Shown here in pieces: positions 2,104-20,410 of a stretch of DNA of 20,410 bases (position 1 is its first letter; every line of letters starts with the position of its first letter). The position numbers and the translations under genes are program-made. The DNA is from a virus. The stretch is taken from positions 1 to 20,410 of IMG/VR virus record IMGVR_UViG_3300017991_000452; one strand, given 5' to 3'. Under the pieces are notes generated by a model, which was given only the letters and a program-made list of their open reading frames with translations, was not told the origin of the DNA and made no database searches.

Positions 2104-4212
2104 ATGAACCTGATTACTGAATCTGAAATTTCCGCCGCCGTTGGAACGGGTCAGAAAGCGGTGCGCCTTCAGGCGGTCAAAAATCAATGGCCGTCCGTCC
2201 GGCGAAAAAAACAGGGCGGTTCCGAGCGGTTTTTCGTGCGGGATCTCCTGCCGGTGGACGTGCGGCAGCAGATTGTCAACCGGCAGACCGCTGGCGGTAA
2301 CCTGCCGGCGCCGTATTTGTCAGATACGCCGGTGCCGAAAAAGGCGAACAAGATCGGCCTGGCCAAATACACCCTGGTGCATGCCTTCCGGGTGACCAAA
2401 GAACGCGCTCCCTGGGGCAAAAAGCGTGAAGCGATCGATGCTTTCCTGTTGTCATATAATGCCGGTGTGCTGCTGCCGTCGATCTATGAAACGATCGGTG
2501 AAATCAAGGAGCGGACAATAGACAGCCTGGACAAAAAGCTGCGCGACCATGACGACAACTATCTCTGCCTGTGCGACGGCCGGGGCGGGTGGAAAAAGCA
2601 CGGCACCACCAAATACAAGGGCCGGAAACTGTCCGAGGCAGCCAAGGCCGTGTTTTTAAAGTGCTACCTGCATCCTCACCGGCCATCGGTGATTATGGCC
2701 ATCCGGGCGGCCCGCATGACCCTTAAAAAACAGGGCATGGCCGAACCCGCAGATGACAGCACGTTCCGGCGCTGGCTGAAAGACTATGAAAAATTCAATG
2801 CCGGTGTGATCTGTCTGTCCCGGGAGGGCATGAAGGCATATCAGGACCGGTTCGGAACGTATATCAGCCGTGACGCCAGCTTGCTTTCTGTCGGCCAGTG
2901 CCTGGTGGCCGACGGCAAGACCCTTAATTTCAATATCATCCATCCGGACACGGGCCGGCCGGCCCGCATGGCGCTCATCGTGTTTTTCGACTGGGCCTCG
3001 CGCTACCCGTGCGGCTGGCAGATCATGCCGACGGAAAATACGATTTCCATTCTGGCGGCCTTCCGAAACGCGGTGCAGACCCTGGGACGGTACCCGGATT
3101 CGGTCTACCTGGACAACGGCCGGGCGTTTAAATCCAAGCTGTTCATGGAAACGGACCCGGATTTTACGGAAATGACCGGGCTGTATGCACGGGTGGGCAC
3201 GGCCGTATTTTTCGCCAAACCCTATAACGGCCGGTCTAAAGTAGTGGAGCGGTTTTTCAAGACCTTCCAGGACCAGTTTGAATTCATCATGCCCAGCTAT
3301 TGCGGGGACTCCATCGCCACCAAGCCGGCCTGGATGCACCGCAATGAAAAATTCCACAAAGCCTGGCACAAGGCCCGCACTCGGAACTGGGTGCCCACCA
3401 TCCGGGACGCGGCCCTGTTTATTGAGGCGTATATTACCTGGTACGCCAAGCAGATCCACAGCGGCCTGAAAGCGGCTCCGGCAGATGTTTTCATGCCGGA
3501 GCGCGGCCCCGGCGTGGACACGGTCCAGTTAAACCATGATTTTCTGCTGCGAAAAATGGTGTCGCCGCGCAACTGCCGGGTCACCTTATGGAACATCGAT
3601 TATGAATCCGACTGCCTGCACAACCTTTCCCGCAACGAAAAAATCTGCGCCATGGTGGACACGGCGGACCTGAACCGGATCTGGTGTTACACAAAAGACG
3701 GCATTTACCTGGGCGAAGCCTATCCGGTGGCCGCGTGCCATCCGCTGGCCAAAACATTCGCCGACCAGGCATCCCTTGACCGGGTGATGGCGGAGAATAA
3801 ACGCCAGGCACGCCTGGCAAAGTCAACAAAAAAACAACTGGCCGCCCTGGGCGTTACCAGGACTTCCGCCGACAGCCTCAATATCCTGCCGTTTAACCAC
3901 AAAGCCCCCATCCTGCCGGAAAAAAAAGAAAAACCCGGCACCGAAAAACCCGCCCGACTGTCAAAAACGGAAGTCAAACGCCTTGAGGCGGTGGTTGAAC
4001 AGGCAGCGAATGAACAGGCAAACGAACCGAAAATCCAAAAGCCCAAATACTGGGCATCGGACCTGGCGCATTATGAATGGTGCTTTCAGGTCATCCACGC
4101 GCATGGGCAGGTCGTAGATGATGCGGACGCGGATTTTATGACGGATTTTGAAACCCGTCCGGAATATGAAAACTACCGGCAGCGGTTTGAGGATTTAAAA
4201 TCAATTCTGTAG
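2104..4212 (+). CDS. A: MuA-like DDE transposase
   Basis: This 702-residue protein cuts the phage ends and joins them to target DNA, driving both integration and replicative transposition. The N-terminus (about 1-55) is the MuA-type winged helix (ITESEISAAVGTGQKAVRLQ). End-binding domains span roughly 75-245. The RNase H-like core carries D270 (VADGKTLNF), D337 (YLDNGRAFK) and E382 (KVVERFFKTF), close to the MuA spacing (D269, D336, E392). A beta-barrel domain follows at about 490-560. The C-terminal tail (WASDLAHYEWCFQ...) is expected to contact the MuB-like ATPase and the remodelling machinery. The length is near that of MuA (663). The stop codon TAG is supplied by the GTAGGGGC arm of a hairpin repeat. 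It appears intact. Confidence 0.95.
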   Translation: MNLITESEISAAVGTGQKAVRLQAVKNQWPSVRRKKQGGSERFFVRDLLPVDVRQQIVNRQTAGGNLPAPYLSDTPVPKKANKIGLAKYTLVHAFRVTKERAPWGKKREAIDAFLLSYNAGVLLPSIYETIGEIKERTIDSLDKKLRDHDDNYLCLCDGRGGWKKHGTTKYKGRKLSEAAKAVFLKCYLHPHRPSVIMAIRAARMTLKKQGMAEPADDSTFRRWLKDYEKFNAGVICLSREGMKAYQDRFGTYISRDASLLSVGQCLVADGKTLNFNIIHPDTGRPARMALIVFFDWASRYPCGWQIMPTENTISILAAFRNAVQTLGRYPDSVYLDNGRAFKSKLFMETDPDFTEMTGLYARVGTAVFFAKPYNGRSKVVERFFKTFQDQFEFIMPSYCGDSIATKPAWMHRNEKFHKAWHKARTRNWVPTIRDAALFIEAYITWYAKQIHSGLKAAPADVFMPERGPGVDTVQLNHDFLLRKMVSPRNCRVTLWNIDYESDCLHNLSRNEKICAMVDTADLNRIWCYTKDGIYLGEAYPVAACHPLAKTFADQASLDRVMAENKRQARLAKSTKKQLAALGVTRTSADSLNILPFNHKAPILPEKKEKPGTEKPARLSKTEVKRLEAVVEQAANEQANEPKIQKPKYWASDLAHYEWCFQVIHAHGQVVDDADADFMTDFETRPEYENYRQRFEDLKSIL

Positions 4213-4235
4213 GGGCGAATTATTATTCTCCCTTA
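4209..4235. repeat. GTAGGGGCGAAT-type hairpin repeat, decayed right arm
   Basis: The left arm GTAGGGGCGAAT is complete, but the right arm reads ATTCTCCCTTAC and has diverged from ATTCGCCCCTAC. The TAG of the left arm is the stop codon of the transposase gene, so the repeat begins within the last codons of the coding sequence. Confidence 0.75.
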
Positions 4236-4279
4236 CGGGTGACGGGCAAGCCAAACCACAAAAGGAGGAACGCGAACAC

Positions 4280-5826: not shown

Positions 5827-5832
5827 CCCGCA

Positions 5833-5951
5833 GGGGCAGACCTGTGTGTCTGCCCTGTTGGGGCAGACCTGTGTGTCTGCCCTGTTGGGGCAGACCTGTG
5901 TGTCTGCCCTTTGCATGCATACGCAGGGCGCACACACAGGTGCGCCCCTAC
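5833..5951. repeat. Expanded hairpin array, three 27-bp units plus a terminal hairpin
   Basis: The unit GGGGCAGAC-CTGTGT-GTCTGCCC plus the linker TGTT repeats at 5833-5859 and 5860-5886, with a third copy from 5887. After a short spacer with TGCATGCAT the array closes with a hairpin of GCGCAC/GTGCGC type ending in CCCCTAC at 5951. The frame upstream of gam stays open through the array, but translation of it is not expected. Confidence 0.9.
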
Positions 5952-5980
5952 GAAATAACACAAAATCACAGGGAGGGATT

Positions 5981-6542: not shown

Positions 6543-6699
6543 GAAAAAAATGCGAAATCACGCCCCACGGCGTGATCGCCGGGAGACGGGCGCCCCGGCC
6601 TGATGAGCATGCCCGTGTGTTTCATTGTTTTCCTCCTCATCCCGTCGCCGGATGGGCCGGTGGCGGGAGAGAACATTAAAATATTTACATGACGGACAT

Positions 6700-6751
6700 G
6701 TAGGGGCGAATCATTATTCGCCCGCGCGGGCGAATCATTATTCGCCCCTAC
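6700..6751. repeat. Tandem pair of GTAGGGGCGAAT-type hairpin repeats
   Basis: Two hairpins with the inner sequence GGGCGAATCATTATTCGCCC lie back to back, 6700-6723 and 6728-6751, joined by GCGC. The outer ends are the family GTAGG and CCTAC. The pair ends directly before the ribosome site of gemA. Confidence 0.9.
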
Positions 6752-7220: not shown

Positions 7221-7327
7221 TTGAAGGTGGAAGGCTGAAGGGCCGAAGGATTAAACCTTAAACCTTAAACCTTAAACCTTATACCTTATACCTTATACCT
7301 TATACCTTATACCTTAAACCTTATACC
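7221..7327. repeat. Heptamer tandem array, NNGAAGG then TTAAACC/TTATACC
   Basis: 7221-7249 holds four NNGAAGG-like units, the last with one extra base. From 7251 to 7327 eleven exact 7-base units follow without interruption: four TTAAACC, five TTATACC, one TTAAACC, one TTATACC. The ordering by blocks suggests slippage-type expansion. The array ends 13 bases before the ATG of the next gene, so copy number could change its 5-prime leader. Confidence 0.95.
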
Positions 7328-7340
7328 TAACAAAGGAACC

Positions 7341-7607: not shown

Positions 7608-7911
7608 AACACTCAACAGCATACTGAAACAATGCGGAATGCGCAAAAAAGCGAGCTACAACCGAAAAGAAGTGATCCGGGTCCTTGGGATTTCCTCCCG
7701 CACCTTCTGGCGGTATGTGACGGCGTATGAGCTGGGCATGGACGGCACGCCGGCCAATCCGTGGGCCATTGACAGTTACATGACGCGGGGACATCACCGG
7801 GTACGGTATGATGAGCTCGCGGACTGGCTGGAGCGGAACCGGACCTGCCATCGGAAACACGCGGATGACCGGCCGGATACACAGACCATGGATTCGCCGG
7901 GGTTTGGATAA
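7594..7911 (+). CDS. Helix-turn-helix (excisionase/MerR-like) DNA-binding protein
   Basis: This 105-residue protein carries a MerR/excisionase-type helix-turn-helix at about residues 24-44 (YNRKEVIRVLGISSRTFWRYV), followed by a wing-like segment (IDSYMTRGHHRVRYDELADWLERN), the usual pattern of small DNA-binding adaptors. I start at ATG 7594, with AGGAG at 7579-7583; the same frame is open further upstream but lacks a site. It lies between gemA and the lysis genes, where Mu has its middle and late activators (Mor, C), so a late-transcription regulator is plausible. No Mor-family signature is visible, so this is inference. Confidence 0.65.
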   Translation: MTPHETLNSILKQCGMRKKASYNRKEVIRVLGISSRTFWRYVTAYELGMDGTPANPWAIDSYMTRGHHRVRYDELADWLERNRTCHRKHADDRPDTQTMDSPGFG

Positions 7912-7916
7912 AAATG

Positions 7917-7944
7917 AACATCCAACATCCAACATCCAACATCG
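7917..7944. repeat. Heptamer tandem repeat, AACATCC type
   Basis: Four 7-base units (AACATCC three times, then AACATCG) lie 5 bases after the stop of the HTH gene. They lead directly into the 88-bp hairpin composite at 7956. A similar run precedes the composite at 11480. Confidence 0.9.
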
Positions 7945-7955
7945 AATTTTGAATC

Positions 7956-8043
7956 GTAGGGGCAGACCTGTGTGTCTGCCCTGTTGGGGCGAATGATTAT
8001 TCGCCCGTACAATTTATGGGCGGACACACAGGTCCGCCCCTAC
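7956..8043 (-). repeat. 88-bp three-hairpin composite element, inverted copy
   Basis: It consists of a GCAGAC/GTCTGC hairpin, linker TGTT, a central GCGAAT/ATTCGC hairpin ending GTAC, linker AATTTAT and a GCGGAC/GTCCGC hairpin, flanked by GTAGGGG and CCCCTAC. Its reverse complement matches the elements at 10062 and 11480 in length, order and both linkers. Exact shared architecture argues for one discrete dispersed element rather than independent hairpins. Confidence 0.9.
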
Positions 8044-8051
8044 GGATTGAT

Positions 8052-8090
8052 TGGATGAAAAAACGGCAAATACGGACATTTTTTCATCCA
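8052..8090. repeat. 12-bp inverted repeat TGGATGAAAAAA/TTTTTTCATCCA
   Basis: The perfect arms at 8052-8063 and 8079-8090 are separated by 15 bases. The right arm lies 22 bases before the ATG of the zinc-finger gene. On the + strand the structure has no T-tract after it, so a terminator is unlikely. The arm core GGATGAAAAA also makes up the palindrome at 18402-18421. Confidence 0.75.
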
Positions 8091-8111
8091 TAACAAAAAA
8101 AAGGAGCCGGC

Positions 8112-8789
8112 ATGATCACCTGCCCGTACAAACACAAAACAACAATCCCGGAGCGCACGTGCGCGCTGCGGTACCGAAACGCGAACCAGCCAACGGTTTG
8201 GGGACACAACAAGCAGCCGGGATGGGATGACTCCCATTGCAAGGATTGCGAGATCGGCGCCCGGCTGTACAGCCAAGGATACGGCGAAAAAACCAGAAAG
8301 GAGACAATGATGGAAAAACCGGATAACGCGGGCGCCCATGTCATTGACGGCGTGACGCTGTATGAACAACCCGGCCGCCTGGCAAAAAGCAAGCCCGTGC
8401 TGGTGGATGAATCGGGCGAGATCAAAGGCAAAATCTGCTCCAAATGCCTTCAGGCAAAACTGCTGGCCGATTTTTACACACATGCGGCCTGCGCGGGCGG
8501 AGTGGAAGCCCAGTGCAAAATCTGCCACCGCGCGTACGATAAAACCCGAAAGTCCGGGCATGTGAAAAAAACGCCCGGCACGAAAACGCCCGTAGGGACG
8601 AATCATCATTCGCCCGCGCAGGCACCTGGGACAACAAAAACGAATAATGATGCGCCCCTCTCCGATTCCCCGGTTCAGCATGCCGCAGGGGCGAAAAGTT
8701 TTACGCTCGAACACCTGGCCGCCAGGGGGCTTAAATGGCCCAAACAGGTTAAAATCAGCATCACGATTGATATCAATCCGTTTTTTTAA
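8112..8789 (+). CDS. Zinc-finger-like hypothetical phage protein with internal start and repeat insertion
   Basis: This 225-residue protein has two cysteine clusters. The first is C4, C17, C43, C46 (CPYK...ERTC...CKDC). The second is C109-x2-C112 with C135-x2-C138 (CSKCLQAKLLADFY...CKICHRAY), a zinc-ribbon pattern also seen next to phage HNH nucleases, though no HNH triad is visible. AAAAGGAG precedes the ATG at 8112. A second strong site, AAAGGAG at 8296-8302, lies just before in-frame ATGs at 8307 and 8310, so a 160-residue product containing only the second cluster may also be made. Codons about 160-183 are read through a hairpin repeat (VGTNHHSPAQ...NNDAPLSD) without breaking the frame. 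Function is unknown. Confidence 0.6.
   Translation: MITCPYKHKTTIPERTCALRYRNANQPTVWGHNKQPGWDDSHCKDCEIGARLYSQGYGEKTRKETMMEKPDNAGAHVIDGVTLYEQPGRLAKSKPVLVDESGEIKGKICSKCLQAKLLADFYTHAACAGGVEAQCKICHRAYDKTRKSGHVKKTPGTKTPVGTNHHSPAQAPGTTKTNNDAPLSDSPVQHAAGAKSFTLEHLAARGLKWPKQVKISITIDINPFF
8592..8660. repeat. GTAGGGGCGAAT-type repeat fragments inside a coding region
   Basis: GTAGGGACGAATCATCATTCGCCC lies at 8592-8615 in direct orientation and a CGAATAATGATGCGCCCC half element at 8641-8658. Both fall within the zinc-finger gene, in frame, with about 25 bases between them. This is the only place in the window where the family is embedded in a gene rather than at its edge. Confidence 0.75.
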
Positions 8790-8887
8790 AGATTCTGTGC
8801 CAAACCCTGCCTAACCGACACGACATTTATATTTTTTTCCTTTATTATGATTCCCGAAGACACGTTTTTTCACTGTTACCTCCTGTG

Positions 8888-8926
8888 TTTACCCGGATGG
8901 CCGGACAGGCCGGTCATCCGGGTAAA
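8888..8926. other. Long hairpin upstream of the lysis cassette
   Basis: Bases 8888-8904 (starting TTTACCCGGATGG) pair with 8910-8926 (ending CATCCGGGTAAA) with one G-T mismatch and a 5-base loop. It lies in the 166-base gap between the zinc-finger gene and the muramidase gene, 29 bases before the chosen TTG start. No T-tract follows. It could be a weak terminator, an mRNA stability element or a leader that tunes endolysin translation. Confidence 0.55.
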
Positions 8927-8955
8927 ACGCCGGAACAATATCGGGGATTATCAAT

Positions 8956-9528
8956 TTGCAGCAACACGAAACCAGCCCGAAACCGGATGCCGTTTTCGAC
9001 ATCGCCGTGAACATCACCCTGGACCACGAAAAGGGATATGTGTTTGACCCGGAAGATCCGGGCGGAGAGACAAAATACGGCATCTCAAAGCGGTCTTATC
9101 CGAACATCGAAATATCCGGCCTGGACCGCGTCCTGGCCAAACGGATCTATTACCAGGACTTCTGGAAAAAACCCAAACTGCATCTGCTGGCGGCCACGGC
9201 CCCGGATCTTGCCATCAAGGTCTTTGACCTGGGGGTCAACTGCGGTTCGCGAACCGCTGTACGGTTCCTTCAGCGGGCCGTAAACACGGTCTGCACAGGC
9301 ATGGTGCCGCCCCGCCGCGCGGCCCGATGGCGTCAGAAAATTGCAAAAATCATCACAAACAAGCCTTTGGCCGTTGACGGATTTATCGGCCCCGTCACCA
9401 TTTCCGTCATTCATGCCTGCCCGTATGATGAGGCGCTGATGAGCGCGTTAAAGGGCGAGGCATATGCGCATTATAAAAATTTAAACCCGTTGTATATTCC
9501 GGGCTGGCTGACGCGGCTGGAGACGTAG
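8956..9528 (+). CDS. GH108 N-acetylmuramidase endolysin
   Basis: This 190-residue enzyme hydrolyses the glycan strands of peptidoglycan to release progeny. The GH108 signature is clear: DHEKGYVFDPEDPGGETKYGIS at about residues 23-44, with catalytic Glu at about 25. It is followed by a helical domain (RIYYQDFWKKPKL...LAIKVFDLGVNCG) and a PG_binding_3-like C-terminus (ADGFIGPVT-type loop as VDGFIGPVTISVIHA, then ALKGEAYAHYKNLNP). There is no signal peptide, so export would need the holin-like neighbour. I use TTG at 8956 with GGGGA about 9 bases upstream; no in-frame ATG fits. The gene opens the lysis cassette, ahead of the holin-like and spanin-like genes. Confidence 0.9.
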   Translation: MQQHETSPKPDAVFDIAVNITLDHEKGYVFDPEDPGGETKYGISKRSYPNIEISGLDRVLAKRIYYQDFWKKPKLHLLAATAPDLAIKVFDLGVNCGSRTAVRFLQRAVNTVCTGMVPPRRAARWRQKIAKIITNKPLAVDGFIGPVTISVIHACPYDEALMSALKGEAYAHYKNLNPLYIPGWLTRLET

Positions 9529-9574
9529 CATGCATATTATAATGACCCAAAAAATTAATACAAAGGAGTTCATC

Positions 9575-10057
9575 ATGAAAAAATCAGGCTATATCGCATT
9601 AATCATCATGCTTGTCAGTTTTACGGCCTTTTGTCTGCTGCCGGTGATCTGCCTGGCAGCCGTCCCGGTTACCGACGCAACCGGGACCCCCCTGGGCCAG
9701 GCCCTGGCGGATTTTTTTACAAACACCCTGTTTCCCGTGATCAATGCCCTGCTGATCGGTCTCATCGGCTGGGCCGTCATCAAGATAGGGAATAAATATA
9801 AAATCGACGCCCTGATTGATGCGGAACTGATGATCCAGAACGCGGCCGCCAAAGGAATCGCCCTGGCCGAGGAAATGGCGGCGAAAAAGCTCAAAACCGC
9901 GAACATCAAAGTATCCGGAAACGAAAAACTGGATATCGCCGTTGCCCAGGTGCTGCAGGCGGCCCCGAAAATATCCAGGGATCAGGCCCAGGAATATGTT
10001 GAGGCGATCCTGGCCAAGACCAAAGGGACCGGGGCCACGAACGAAAAAACGGTTTAA
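9575..10057 (+). CDS. Holin-like membrane protein (LLH-holin type)
   Basis: This 160-residue inner-membrane protein has a hydrophobic N-terminal segment (about 5-28, signal-like, ending in CLAA) and a second membrane segment (about 50-70: TLFPVINALLIGLIGWAVIKIG). A long charged, alanine-rich helix follows (AELMIQNAAAKGIALAEEMAAKKLK), then KLDIAVAQVLQAAPK...AQEYVEAILA, as in phage holins of the LL-H type. It would make the lesion or export route for the endolysin encoded just upstream. I start at ATG 9575 with AAAGGAG; an upstream in-frame ATG at 9530 is less well supported. The 88-bp hairpin composite follows directly. Confidence 0.75.
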   Translation: MKKSGYIALIIMLVSFTAFCLLPVICLAAVPVTDATGTPLGQALADFFTNTLFPVINALLIGLIGWAVIKIGNKYKIDALIDAELMIQNAAAKGIALAEEMAAKKLKTANIKVSGNEKLDIAVAQVLQAAPKISRDQAQEYVEAILAKTKGTGATNEKTV

Positions 10058-10061
10058 CATC

Positions 10062-10149
10062 GTAGGGGCGCACCTGCGTGTGCGCCCATAAATTGTACGG
10101 GCGAATAATCATTCGCCCCAACAGGGCAGACACGCAGGTCTGCCCCTAC
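10062..10149 (+). repeat. 88-bp three-hairpin composite element
   Basis: The order is a GCGCAC/GTGCGC hairpin, linker ATAAATT, GTAC plus central GCGAAT/ATTCGC hairpin, linker AACA and a GCAGAC/GTCTGC hairpin, closed by GTAGGGG and CCCCTAC. It has the same orientation as 11480-11567 and the opposite to 7956-8043. It starts 5 bases after the holin-like stop and ends 14 bases before the next start. Confidence 0.92.
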
Positions 10150-10163
10150 GGCTGGATTAAATA

Positions 10164-10415
10164 ATGATTTCCGCGATCATCAAATTAATCGTCATTCTCA
10201 TCCCCCTGGGGCTGGAATGGCTGCTGGACCATAAAAAACAGGAATCATCCTATGAAGGCAAAATCAACCGCTTTGATAAGGCCCTGGCGGATCGTAATGT
10301 GTCTGGTCTGTCTGCTGCTTTTGACCGGATGCGCGTTGTTCAAAAGCCCGGAAACCCAAGTTGTGGTGATCCCCTCCGAGCGGGTGATCAAGGCACTGCC
10401 CAACGGCAATTATGA
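10164..10415 (+). CDS. Small membrane protein, possible i-spanin-like partner
   Basis: This 83-residue protein has one N-terminal membrane segment (ISAIIKLIVILIPLGLEWLL, about 2-21), then a charged region (DHKKQESSYEGKINRFDKALADRNVSGLSAAFDRMR). It is typical of small lysis-cassette proteins of transposable phages. Its last 164 bases overlap the lipoprotein gene in another frame, like Rz/Rz1 pairs, which disrupt the outer membrane in the last lysis step. The soluble part is shorter than in a standard i-spanin, so the spanin role is uncertain. The ribosome site is weak, since the start follows closely on the hairpin composite. Confidence 0.6.
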   Translation: MISAIIKLIVILIPLGLEWLLDHKKQESSYEGKINRFDKALADRNVSGLSAAFDRMRVVQKPGNPSCGDPLRAGDQGTAQRQL

Positions 10416-10521
10416 AGTAACGCCTGCCTGGCTCAAGGAACGGTATGAATATGAAGCATGGATTACGGAGCAACTGGAAGGGTGTCGGGTGTCAGGTGTC
10501 AGGAAAGACCCTGAACCCTGA
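10252..10521 (+). CDS. Overlapping lipoprotein, o-spanin-like (Rz1-like)
   Basis: This 89-residue protein has a lipoprotein signal peptide: basic start, hydrophobic core and lipobox L-T-G-C, with the lipidated Cys at about residue 27 (VCLLLLTGCALF). The mature part (VVVIPSERVIKALPNGNYEVTPAWLKERYEYEAWITEQLEGC) is typical of outer-membrane lysis lipoproteins in Mu-like phages. It starts inside the preceding gene in a different frame with AGGA upstream. The last codons (CRVSGVRKDPEP) are encoded by GGTGTCA and ACCCTGA heptamer repeats, and the TGA stop itself lies in an ACCCTGA unit. The original C-terminus may therefore have been replaced or extended by repeat sequence. Confidence 0.75.
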   Translation: MKAKSTALIRPWRIVMCLVCLLLLTGCALFKSPETQVVVIPSERVIKALPNGNYEVTPAWLKERYEYEAWITEQLEGCRVSGVRKDPEP

Positions 10522-10566
10522 ACACTGTAGGGGCAAAAAATATTTTGCCCCTACCCTGAACCCTGA
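10481..10566. repeat. Heptamer repeats (GGTGTCA, ACCCTGA) enclosing a 28-bp palindromic repeat
   Basis: 10481-10501 holds three GGTGTC(G/A) units. 10508-10521 holds two ACCCTGA units. The hairpin GTAGGGGCAAAA...TTTTGCCCCTAC occupies 10527-10554 and is followed by two more ACCCTGA units at 10553-10566. The hairpin thus sits inside a heptamer array, as if inserted there or as if the array expanded on both sides. Confidence 0.85.
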
Positions 10567-10586
10567 CCACCGGAGCGAAGCGACAA

Positions 10587-10802
10587 ATGGATGAAGCGGA
10601 CCGCGCCCGGATCACGAGCGACCGTCACCTGGCCGAAGCCATGGCGGGCATCAAAAAAAATATGCCCACGGGTGAATCACACACCCATTGCGCCGATTGC
10701 GGTGAGCCCATCCCCCAGGCCCGCCGCATGGCCGCAAAAGGCTGCGCCCGGTGCGCGGAATGCCAGGCGGAACATGAACAACTGGAACGGAGGATGATGT
10801 GA
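10587..10802 (+). CDS. DksA/TraR-type C4 zinc-finger protein
   Basis: This 71-residue protein has an N-terminal helix (MDEADRARITSDRHLAEAMAGIKK) and a C4 zinc finger formed by C35-x2-C38 (CADCGEPIPQARR) and C56-x2-C59 (CARCAEC), the DksA/TraR family signature. Such short phage forms can act on RNA polymerase through its secondary channel without needing ppGpp, or may have other roles. Position in the late small-gene cluster before the gp25-like gene is usual in Mu-like phages. GGAG lies about 11 bases before the ATG. The 3-prime end overlaps the next gene (ATGATGTGA). Confidence 0.88.
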   Translation: MDEADRARITSDRHLAEAMAGIKKNMPTGESHTHCADCGEPIPQARRMAAKGCARCAECQAEHEQLERRMM

Positions 10803-11122
10803 CGATTGCTGAATTTTATCATGAATTAATCGCCTCGCTGCCGGCCATCGGCACCATCGGCATGACAATCTATGTCTGGCTGGCCAACCGCCAGCGGGTG
10901 AAAACAGCCCGGATCAACAATATGGACGCGCGGATCGGCAACCATGAGACCCGGATCGTATGCATTGAAAACGACATGAAACATGTACCGACCCAGGAAA
11001 GCATTACCGGGCTGAAAAACGCCATTGCCGATATGAACACGAAACTGTCGGAAACCAAGGGGCGACTGTCCGGCATCAACCGGGCCGTGGACCTGATTAA
11101 CGAACATCTCATCAATACATAA
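10799..11122 (+). CDS. Mu gp25-like membrane/coiled-coil protein (DUF2730)
   Basis: This 107-residue protein has one N-terminal membrane segment (about 8-28: IASLPAIGTIGMTIYVWLANR) followed by a long predicted coiled coil (MDARIGNHETRIVCIEND...LKNAIADMNTKLSETKGRLSGINRAVDLINEHL). This layout and the position match DUF2730, Mu gp25. The start is GTG at 10799, overlapping the stop of the zinc-finger gene, with GGAGG upstream. The role in the phage cycle is not established; an inner-membrane location is likely. Confidence 0.8.
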   Translation: MTIAEFYHELIASLPAIGTIGMTIYVWLANRQRVKTARINNMDARIGNHETRIVCIENDMKHVPTQESITGLKNAIADMNTKLSETKGRLSGINRAVDLINEHLINT

Positions 11123-11132
11123 GGGTGGTAAC

Positions 11133-11432
11133 GTGGGAAATTTCGAACAATTGATTTCAGAGGATATCCGGCTGGTCATGTTGCGGTGCCTGGAGGAAGT
11201 CTCCGACTATTCGCTTAATGAATCGGTCCTTCTTTCCGCCCTGGGCGCGTTCGGCCATCATGTGAGCCGGGACCGGGTGCGGACGGAAATGGACTGGCTG
11301 GCCGAACAGAACCTGATCACCATTGACATGATATCCGACATTCGGATCGCTGTTCTGACCGCGCGCGGCGCGGATGCGGCATGCGGACGGGCCACCGTGT
11401 CCGGGGTCAAAAGACCCGGCCCGAGGGGATGA
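11133..11432 (+). CDS. Mu gp26-like small protein (VpaChn25_0724 family)
   Basis: This 99-residue protein (FEQLISEDIRLVMLRCLEEVSDYSLNESVLLSALGAFGHHVSRDRVRTEMDWLAEQNLITI...RIAVLTARGADAACGRATVSGVKRPGP) fits the family found between the gp25-like gene and the small terminase in Mu-like phages. The middle looks like a winged helix (SLNESVL...SRDRVRTEMDWLAEQNLI), so DNA binding is likely. GTG at 11133 is the start; AAGGGTGG lies upstream. The RPGP-type C-terminus is common to the family. Confidence 0.82.
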   Translation: MGNFEQLISEDIRLVMLRCLEEVSDYSLNESVLLSALGAFGHHVSRDRVRTEMDWLAEQNLITIDMISDIRIAVLTARGADAACGRATVSGVKRPGPRG

Positions 11433-11440
11433 AACAGATG

Positions 11441-11475
11441 AACATCCAACATCCAACATTGAACATCAAACATCG
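11441..11475. repeat. Heptamer tandem repeat, AACATCC type, second locus
   Basis: Five 7-base units follow the gp26-like gene: AACATCC twice, then AACATTG, AACATCA and AACATCG. A GAAACAG word lies just before it at 11431-11437. The run leads into the 88-bp composite at 11480, just as at 7917-7956. Confidence 0.88.
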
Positions 11476-11479
11476 AATT

Positions 11480-11567
11480 GTAGGGGTGCACCTGCGTGTG
11501 TGCCCATAAATTGTACGGGCGAATAATCATTCGCCCCAACAGGGCAGACACACAGGTCTGCCCCTAC
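11480..11567 (+). repeat. 88-bp three-hairpin composite element, third copy
   Basis: Same length, hairpin order and linkers (ATAAATT, AACA) as 10062-10149. The first hairpin here has GTGCAC/GTGTGC arms instead of GCGCAC/GTGCGC, and the last has ACACAC where the other has ACACGC. It ends 11 bases before the small-terminase start, so the hairpin lies within the leader of that gene. Confidence 0.92.
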
Positions 11568-16511: not shown

Positions 16512-17090
16512 GTGTCAGGCGTGACCGTCAATATCGATATTCAGGACAAAGAAATTCATGCCCTGCTGAAACAGATAGCGGCCCGCATCTCGGATATAAC
16601 GCCGGCAATGGAAGAAATCGGCGAAATCGTCCGTGCGTCGGTGGTGCGAAACTTCCGTGCCGGGGGCCGGCCGGGCAAATGGAAAAAATCCAGCCGGGCC
16701 AAATCCGACAGCGGCCAGACGCTTCTGGATTCCGGCCGGCTGAGAAATTCGTTTTCCGTAGCACACGGACACCCGGAAGGATATGCAAAAGTTTCCAAAG
16801 ACGAAGTGGCCGTCGGCACCAATGTGGTATATGCGGCCGTCCACCATTTTGGTGCGGAAAAAGGCGAATTCGGCACAAAGGCCGTAAATGTAAAGACGCA
16901 TAAACGAACCATTGAAAAGGCATTCGGCAGGGTCCTGGAATCACCAAAGACTATTGATGTAAAGGGCCACACCCGTCAGCAGCAATTACCCTGGGGAGAC
17001 ATCCCGGACCGGCCGTTTTTGATGATCCAGGCCGAGGACTGGACGGAAATTATGACCATGCTGGGGAAATATCTGGAAAACGGATCGTAG
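16512..17090 (+). CDS. gpG-like virion morphogenesis protein
   Basis: This 192-residue protein fits the phage virion morphogenesis family of Mu gpG: MSGVTVNIDIQDKEIHALLKQ at the start, then EEIGEIVRASVVRNFRAGGRPGKWKKS, LLDSGRLRNSFSVAHG, VAVGTNVVYAAVHHFGAEKG and the C-terminal IPDRPFLMIQAEDW. Such proteins act in head completion or head-tail joining. The start is GTG at 16512 with AGGAG at 16498-16502; both overlap the minus-strand promoter. Codons 138-158 (VLESPKTIDVKGHTRQQQLPW) seem to be an inserted loop, as in many members. The final TAG is part of a hairpin repeat. Confidence 0.88.
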   Translation: MSGVTVNIDIQDKEIHALLKQIAARISDITPAMEEIGEIVRASVVRNFRAGGRPGKWKKSSRAKSDSGQTLLDSGRLRNSFSVAHGHPEGYAKVSKDEVAVGTNVVYAAVHHFGAEKGEFGTKAVNVKTHKRTIEKAFGRVLESPKTIDVKGHTRQQQLPWGDIPDRPFLMIQAEDWTEIMTMLGKYLENGS

Positions 17091-17113
17091 GGACGGACCT
17101 GTGTGTCCGTCCT
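17087..17113. repeat. GTAGGGACGGACCTGTGTGTCCGTCC hairpin repeat
   Basis: Arms GGGACGGAC and GTCCGTCC surround the loop CTGTGT. Both arms differ from the GCGGAC/GTCCGC form in a paired manner (GGACGGAC with GTCCGTCC), so the stem is kept. The TAG at 17088-17090 is the stop codon of the gpG-like gene. Confidence 0.85.
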
Positions 17114-20257: not shown

Positions 20258-20410
20258 GTAGGGGCAGTCCTGTGTGTCTGCCCATAAAGGGCGCACACGC
20301 AGGTGGGGCGCACACGCAGGTGGGGCGCACACGCAGGTGGGGCGCACACGCAGGTGGGGCGCACACGCAGGTGGGGCGCACACGCAGGTGGGGCGCACAC
20401 GCAGGTGGGG
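20258..20410. repeat. Hairpin repeat running into a 17-bp tandem array
   Basis: GTAGGGGCAGTCCTGTGTGTCTGCCCAT starts at 20258, 9 bases after the capsid stop. From 20289 the unit GGGCGCACACGCAGGTG (17 bases) repeats seven times without a change to 20407, and the eighth begins at the edge of the window. The unit is one half of the GCGCAC-type hairpin with its other arm missing. The array continues beyond the window, so its full size is unknown. Confidence 0.95.

Follow-up and report, generated by a model that had tools for sequence, protein, structure and literature searches.

The stretch of DNA analyzed in this work (the window) spans 20,410 nucleotides and corresponds to the complete virus record IMGVR_UViG_3300017991_000452, a Mu-like phage contig with genes for a MuA-like transposase, a TniB-like ATPase, Gam, terminase, Mu portal and Mu F, as well as an endolysin, a head protease, a scaffold and a major head protein. 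Three copies of an 88-bp element built from repetitive extragenic palindromic (REP) sequences are found in it (Table 1), and their coordinates, length, hairpin order, linkers and inverted first copy are all as described in an original prediction made from the sequence alone. The unit is bordered by GTAG...CTAC, and in copy 2 it comprises a left arm (A1, 26 nt), the linker ATAAATT, a central hairpin (B', 28 nt), a single A and an inverted right arm (A2, 26 nt), adding up to 88. The outer arms, here named type A REPs, consist of GTAG, an 8-bp stem starting with GGG and a 6-nt CTGYGT loop; the GTAG lies directly at the hairpin foot in 6/6 outer arms, and three consecutive G-C pairs (GGG...CCC) form the stem base in every one. 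B' differs by two changes from the double-foot palindromic REP GTAGGGGCGAATNATNATTCGCCCCTAC.

The three copies share 94-96% pairwise identity, with six variable columns out of 88 (five in the first arm, namely 8, 10, 16, 21 and 22, plus loop position 73 of the second arm) and an invariant middle of 36 bp. Paired changes had been proposed from these copies, for which the support within the window is thin, since full compensation is seen only between columns 10 and 21 (G-C to C-G), the changes at columns 8 and 22 each yield a G.T wobble in copy 3, and columns 16 and 73 are loop bases; across genomes, however, the proposal held, as described below. The joint pattern of an A arm and a GAAT hairpin occurs six times in the window and not once in 100 dinucleotide shuffles, and the copies fold strongly as single-stranded DNA (z = -11.0, -8.3 and -6.9). 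The best fold is one long hairpin, in which the outer arms pair with each other and enclose the central hairpin; thus, the three separate hairpins originally described are only one of two possible folds. In Pseudomonas fluorescens, pairs of inverted REPs known as REPINs are reportedly moved as a block, linked to REP-associated tyrosine transposases (RAYTs), and able to fold into one long hairpin.

Besides the composites, around ten more REP-like units were identified in the contig (at 1318, 4207, 5828-5953, 6698-6751, 7188, 8590, 10527, 17087, 18373 and 20258), and inverted, head-to-head pairs behave as a dispersed unit, with three such units in the window. The midpoint lies outside coding sequence in 12 of the 13 units, within a contig that is 89% coding according to a hand-picked gene list (p = 4e-11). 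This agrees with the dispersed unit resembling REPs or bacterial interspersed mosaic elements that had been anticipated in intergenic gaps; the suggested preference for phage gaps stands as regards gene gaps but not as regards phages, since most related phages carry few or no REPs, with a mean of 0.6 GTAGGG hairpins per 20 kb in related phage loci vs 12 in the window. Exact type A REPs number 7 per 20 kb in the window, compared with 0.9 per 20 kb in the densest sampled genome.

Empty and filled sites could be compared for copy 3, whose flanking genes are separated by 146 bp in the window (heptads plus the 88-bp unit), whereas their orthologues abut in five related phages (L226, L249, L251, L273 and L300), which shows a net gain at a new place. 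AACATCC heptad tracts flank copies 1 and 3 on the same side despite the inversion of copy 1, and therefore the heptads lie outside the unit. In another related phage (L294), with an 84% identical large terminase, the equivalent gap is occupied by another hairpin and by heptads of a different sequence (TTTTCAC/TTTTCAA, at about 985-1020). These findings bear on the view that the hairpins are phage regulatory RNA elements kept for their function in transcript ends, mRNA stability or operon punctuation, with which the intergenic position of 12/13 units and the stability of the fold would be in agreement. Nevertheless, both orientations occur, none of the three copies is followed on the transcribed strand by the T-run expected of an intrinsic terminator, the element is absent from relatives where the genes around copy 3 are comparable, and the REP is also present in many bacterial genomes and within RAYT genes; we therefore regard a regulatory origin as quite improbable.

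The original prediction had also considered the element MITE-like (i.e., resembling miniature inverted-repeat transposable elements). A DDE-type MITE with terminal inverted repeats (TIRs), moved by a conventional insertion sequence (IS) transposase, is very unlikely here, as a comparison of the sequences on either side of the three window copies gave neither a common inverted repeat above chance level nor a target duplication. In its favor, a Desulfamplus metagenome-assembled genome (MAG; G017, L333-L351 and L383-L394) harbors a MITE family of ~120 bp, with 24-bp TIRs (GGCCTTGATCATNNTTTCGGCCAG) and target duplications of ~9 bp, which carries similar GTAGGGGC REP pairs as cargo, several different pairs being found between similar TIRs; flanking inverted repeats also occur at two other sites, L157 and L142. 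In the same Desulfamplus genome, a 59-bp GTAG...CTAC pair is present with identical ends both inside the larger element and bare (L337/L391). A candidate autonomous IS at L386, with two TIR-like ends 1.9 kb apart, was discarded, since it consists of a truncated and a complete MITE around unrelated DNA.

Type A REPs extend well beyond the window, the pattern being found in 69 stretches of viral contigs and in at least 120 stretches of genome contigs, whose record titles point to a dozen phyla or more. In 21 of 21 genomes, picked because type A REPs were present, between 1 and 378 copies were counted per genome, and the reversed control gave 0. Of 234 copies, 223 (95%) have a Watson-Crick pair at the stem position that the search pattern left unconstrained; pairing occurs in 20 of 26 distinct stem variants, while shuffling gave 7.3 on average and 16 at most, a comparison among related copies that carries no formal probability. 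This shows that the hairpin is maintained across genomes; the paired changes may reflect either selection of the fold or the use of one arm as a template for the other. Head-to-head REP pairs also occur in many genomes, with spacers ranging from 1 to 66 bp and 6-8 bp among the commoner ones, and without B' the composite would be an A-A pair spaced by 8 bp (ATAAATT + A). Orders other than A-B-A are found even in the window (5828-5953 and 6698-6751). Hence, the fixed order and linkers described originally apply to the three copies but not elsewhere, and the free variation in hairpin order and linker length that was named beforehand as contrary evidence is partly seen across genomes. Because order and linker length vary in this way, the conserved unit is the REP hairpin and the head-to-head pair, rather than the 88-bp composite.

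The anticipated tie to a TnpA-REP/IS200-like transposase was confirmed, as RAYT genes in related genomes are saturated with REPs of this superfamily. A divergent RAYT was identified as the cognate gene through one genome, G013, and a query derived from it had matches in 23 of 30 genomes. Hairpins with a GTAGGGGC foot and any stem, a wider class than type A, amount to 64 in 33.5 kb (19 per 10 kb) at the RAYT gene ±300 bp, vs 7 in 61 kb (1.1 per 10 kb) in the rest of the RAYT loci and 3 in 212 kb (0.14 per 10 kb) at other Y1_Tnp loci of the same genomes, a control from which two G013 loci were excluded, only one of which belongs to the new clade. Among the 34 listed RAYT loci, a few of which overlap, 23 display such a hairpin in the gene or within 450 bp, 19 of them inside the gene. 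Many of these intragenic REPs are in frame, located between the PNHxH motif and the FKT...WQRNYYEHIIRN half, and encode peptides such as GADLCVRP and GEHTGSPL. Type A REPs themselves adjoin RAYTs in seven genomes, belonging to Chloroflexota, Desulfobacterota and allied groups, Gammaproteobacteria and an unplaced MAG. On a RAYT tree in which most inner branches are weak, and where a locus was labelled type A if it had at least one such REP, the label requires 2 changes vs 6.2 when shuffled, and 0 of 500 shuffles were as low. The REP superfamily is thus linked to this RAYT clade, for three members of which the nearest family was NCBIfam REP_Tyr_transpos, with matches (E values from 1e-13 to 1e-17) that do not reach its cut-off.

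In genomes with REPs, most Pfam Y1_Tnp matches had either other REP types or no REPs at their flanks. A first test with this profile pointed to type A REPs without any transposase, which was discarded as a false negative, since the RAYT clade scores poorly with Y1_Tnp, an effect to which the splitting of the domain by REP insertions probably contributes. Other REP types (GTAGGGTGGGTARCG..., GTAGGGTCGAATTCATTCGACC and GTAGGTCGGGTTAGCG...) flank other RAYTs at L193, L401, L324, L329 and L330, in Parabeggiatoa and Methylobacter genomes where type A REPs are present too.

We propose, with a probability of approximately 0.78, that the 88-bp units are REPINs that spread as a block, likely by a host RAYT acting in trans. 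In the proposed arrangement, two GTAG-tagged REP hairpins of 26 nt would stand head to head around an 8-bp spacer holding the 28-bp B', which would most simply be a second, double-tagged REP that was inserted earlier and has since lost its exact tags. As the B' changes are common to the three copies, nesting in an older A-A pair would have preceded the copying of the whole, an order of events read from the sequences. The unit would then have spread, with GTAG...CTAC as borders, into gene gaps of the Mu-like phage or prophage. The likeliest mover would be a host RAYT/TnpA-REP of the clade matching subclass 2.4 (see below), which, by analogy with the Escherichia coli TnpA-REP, would bind single-stranded DNA in its folded form, cleave it at GTAG and join it again; the predicted substrate of a type A RAYT is single-stranded GTAGGGGCNNACCTGYGTGTNNGCCC. 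The RAYT query had no match in the window or in the 69 viral stretches with the type A pattern, and therefore mobilization there, if any, would occur in trans.

Alternatively, the units might be true REPs whose copies and paired changes were produced by recombination, hairpin template switching or gene conversion, with little or no present RAYT activity. The arm variants correspond to common REP subtypes across genomes, the arms vary while the middle 36 bp remain constant, and half-REP tandems are found at 20289-20410 and in L027 (a 22-bp partial-REP tandem), all of which would accord with such a process; yet the linkage to RAYTs, the clustering of RAYTs and REPs on the tree, and the net gain at a new place observed for copy 3 make it an unlikely account.

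Several points weigh against spread of the window units by a RAYT. The searches made recovered no A-B-A composite beyond those of the window: narrow composite patterns had no matches in the viral or genome collections, a wide pattern had none in the viral contigs or in 389 Desulfobacteria genomes (the sets covered by the widest pattern, the full genome collection being covered by the narrower one), and blastn with copy 2 gave no match in phage or plasmid records. The RAYT tree is poorly resolved, and type A REPs accompany only 7 of its 22 RAYTs, most having other stems. The Pfam Y1_Tnp profile found nothing in three sampled type A genomes, in which matches to the RAYT clade exist, two of them weak. 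Furthermore, the record contains the virus alone. Movement of the three copies by a RAYT is argued from linkage and, by analogy, from published biochemistry of the E. coli TnpA-REP.

The elements fit two published descriptions. TnpA-REP subclass 2.4 is scattered over phyla and characterized by three G-C pairs at the REP base, double-foot REPs, and intragenic REP insertions that lie between HuH and Y and preserve the reading frame (Quentin et al., 2018; PMC6006769). Like it, the window and related genomes display a GTAG foot, a stem base of three G-C pairs, and both canonical and double-foot REPs, and the RAYT clade, present in many phyla, has in-frame REP insertions between the HuH and Y motifs, a trait called unique to that subclass; by these described traits alone, the clade appears to match subclass 2.4. 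In contrast to it, the window REPs reside in a phage lacking a RAYT, and a single three-hairpin unit combines the two REP kinds. The other description is that of head-to-head GTAG pairs, heterodimers among them, and of stem-loops within spacers (Di Nocera et al., 2013; PMC3733652), which the window units resemble in their outward GTAG ends, unequal arms and stem-loop in the spacer; the stem and loop GGGYRNAC-CTGYGT were not found in the text of that paper, and the spacer hairpin of the window, unlike the heterodimers described there, itself resembles a REP. A third close system is constituted by the P. fluorescens REPINs (Bertels and Rainey, 2011; PMC3116915), from which the window units differ in REP sequence, extra central hairpin and phage location. 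Two features are new, namely the REP load of a phage and, as far as the searches extended, the A-B-A composite.

As the A-B-A unit suggests, the spacer of a REPIN can receive another REP, which then travels along with it. REPs have been described mainly as chromosomal elements, and the scatter of related REP-RAYT systems across phyla is a question to which REP-bearing phages speak. Temperate transposable phages might accumulate REPINs to densities far above those of chromosomes and carry them from host to host without a RAYT, an idea that we hold as rather doubtful; if true, it would help account for the presence of one REP across a dozen phyla. Phage carriage is made testable by the window, with its 7 exact type A REPs, together with a different phage contig (L041 1-5917, IMGVR_UViG_3300031553_000049) that has 11 GTAGGG hairpins in 5.9 kb. 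The L041 hairpins are located mostly near head-tail gene junctions, and some open reading frame (ORF) starts there encode REP peptides (VGAAPRGRP).

Table 1. Composite copies and other REP features of the window.
Feature	Position	Strand	Remark
Composite copy 1 (A1-B'-A2), inverted	7956..8043	-	
Composite copy 2	10062..10149	+	
Composite copy 3	11480..11567	+	Flanking-gene orthologues abut in five related phages
Type A REP, left arm of copy 2: GTAG foot, 8-bp stem GGGCGCAC/GTGCGCCC, loop CTGCGT	10062..10087	+	
Central hairpin B' of copy 2, GTACGGGCGAATAATCATTCGCCCCAAC	10095..10122	.	Identical in all three copies
Type A REP, right arm of copy 2, head-to-head vs left arm	10124..10149	-	
REP array: three head-to-tail REPs (27-bp period, TGTTG junction) and one inverted REP	5828..5953	+	
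Intact type B REPs, single-tagged GTAGGGGCGAATNATNATTCGCCC, head-to-head pair with 4-bp spacer	6700..6751	.	
Double-foot REP GTAGGGGCAAAAAATATTTTGCCCCTAC inside CCTGAA(C) heptad tract	10527..10554	.	
Lone type A-like REP, compensated stem (GGGAC/GTCC)	17087..17112	+	
REP, then ATAAA, then 17-bp half-REP tandem up to contig end	20258..20410	+	

Minor features of the contig concern the contact of REPs with genes and with other repeats. The TAG stop codon of ORF 16512-17090 lies inside the GTAG of the REP at 17087-17112, and that of the MuA-like gene, ending at 4212, inside the GTAG of the unit at 4207-4236, while the REP-like hairpin at 8590-8619 is contained within phage ORF 8112-8789 with the reading frame intact. 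The head-to-tail repeats of the 17-bp half-REP GGGCGCACACGCAGGTG at 20289-20410 may be either a real slippage product or an assembly artefact. Degenerate heptad tracts (CCTTAAA, AACATCC and CCTGAAC) are found at 7251-7328, 7907-7955, 10474-10580 and 11438-11473, adjoining REPs in gene gaps as though both insert at the same places.

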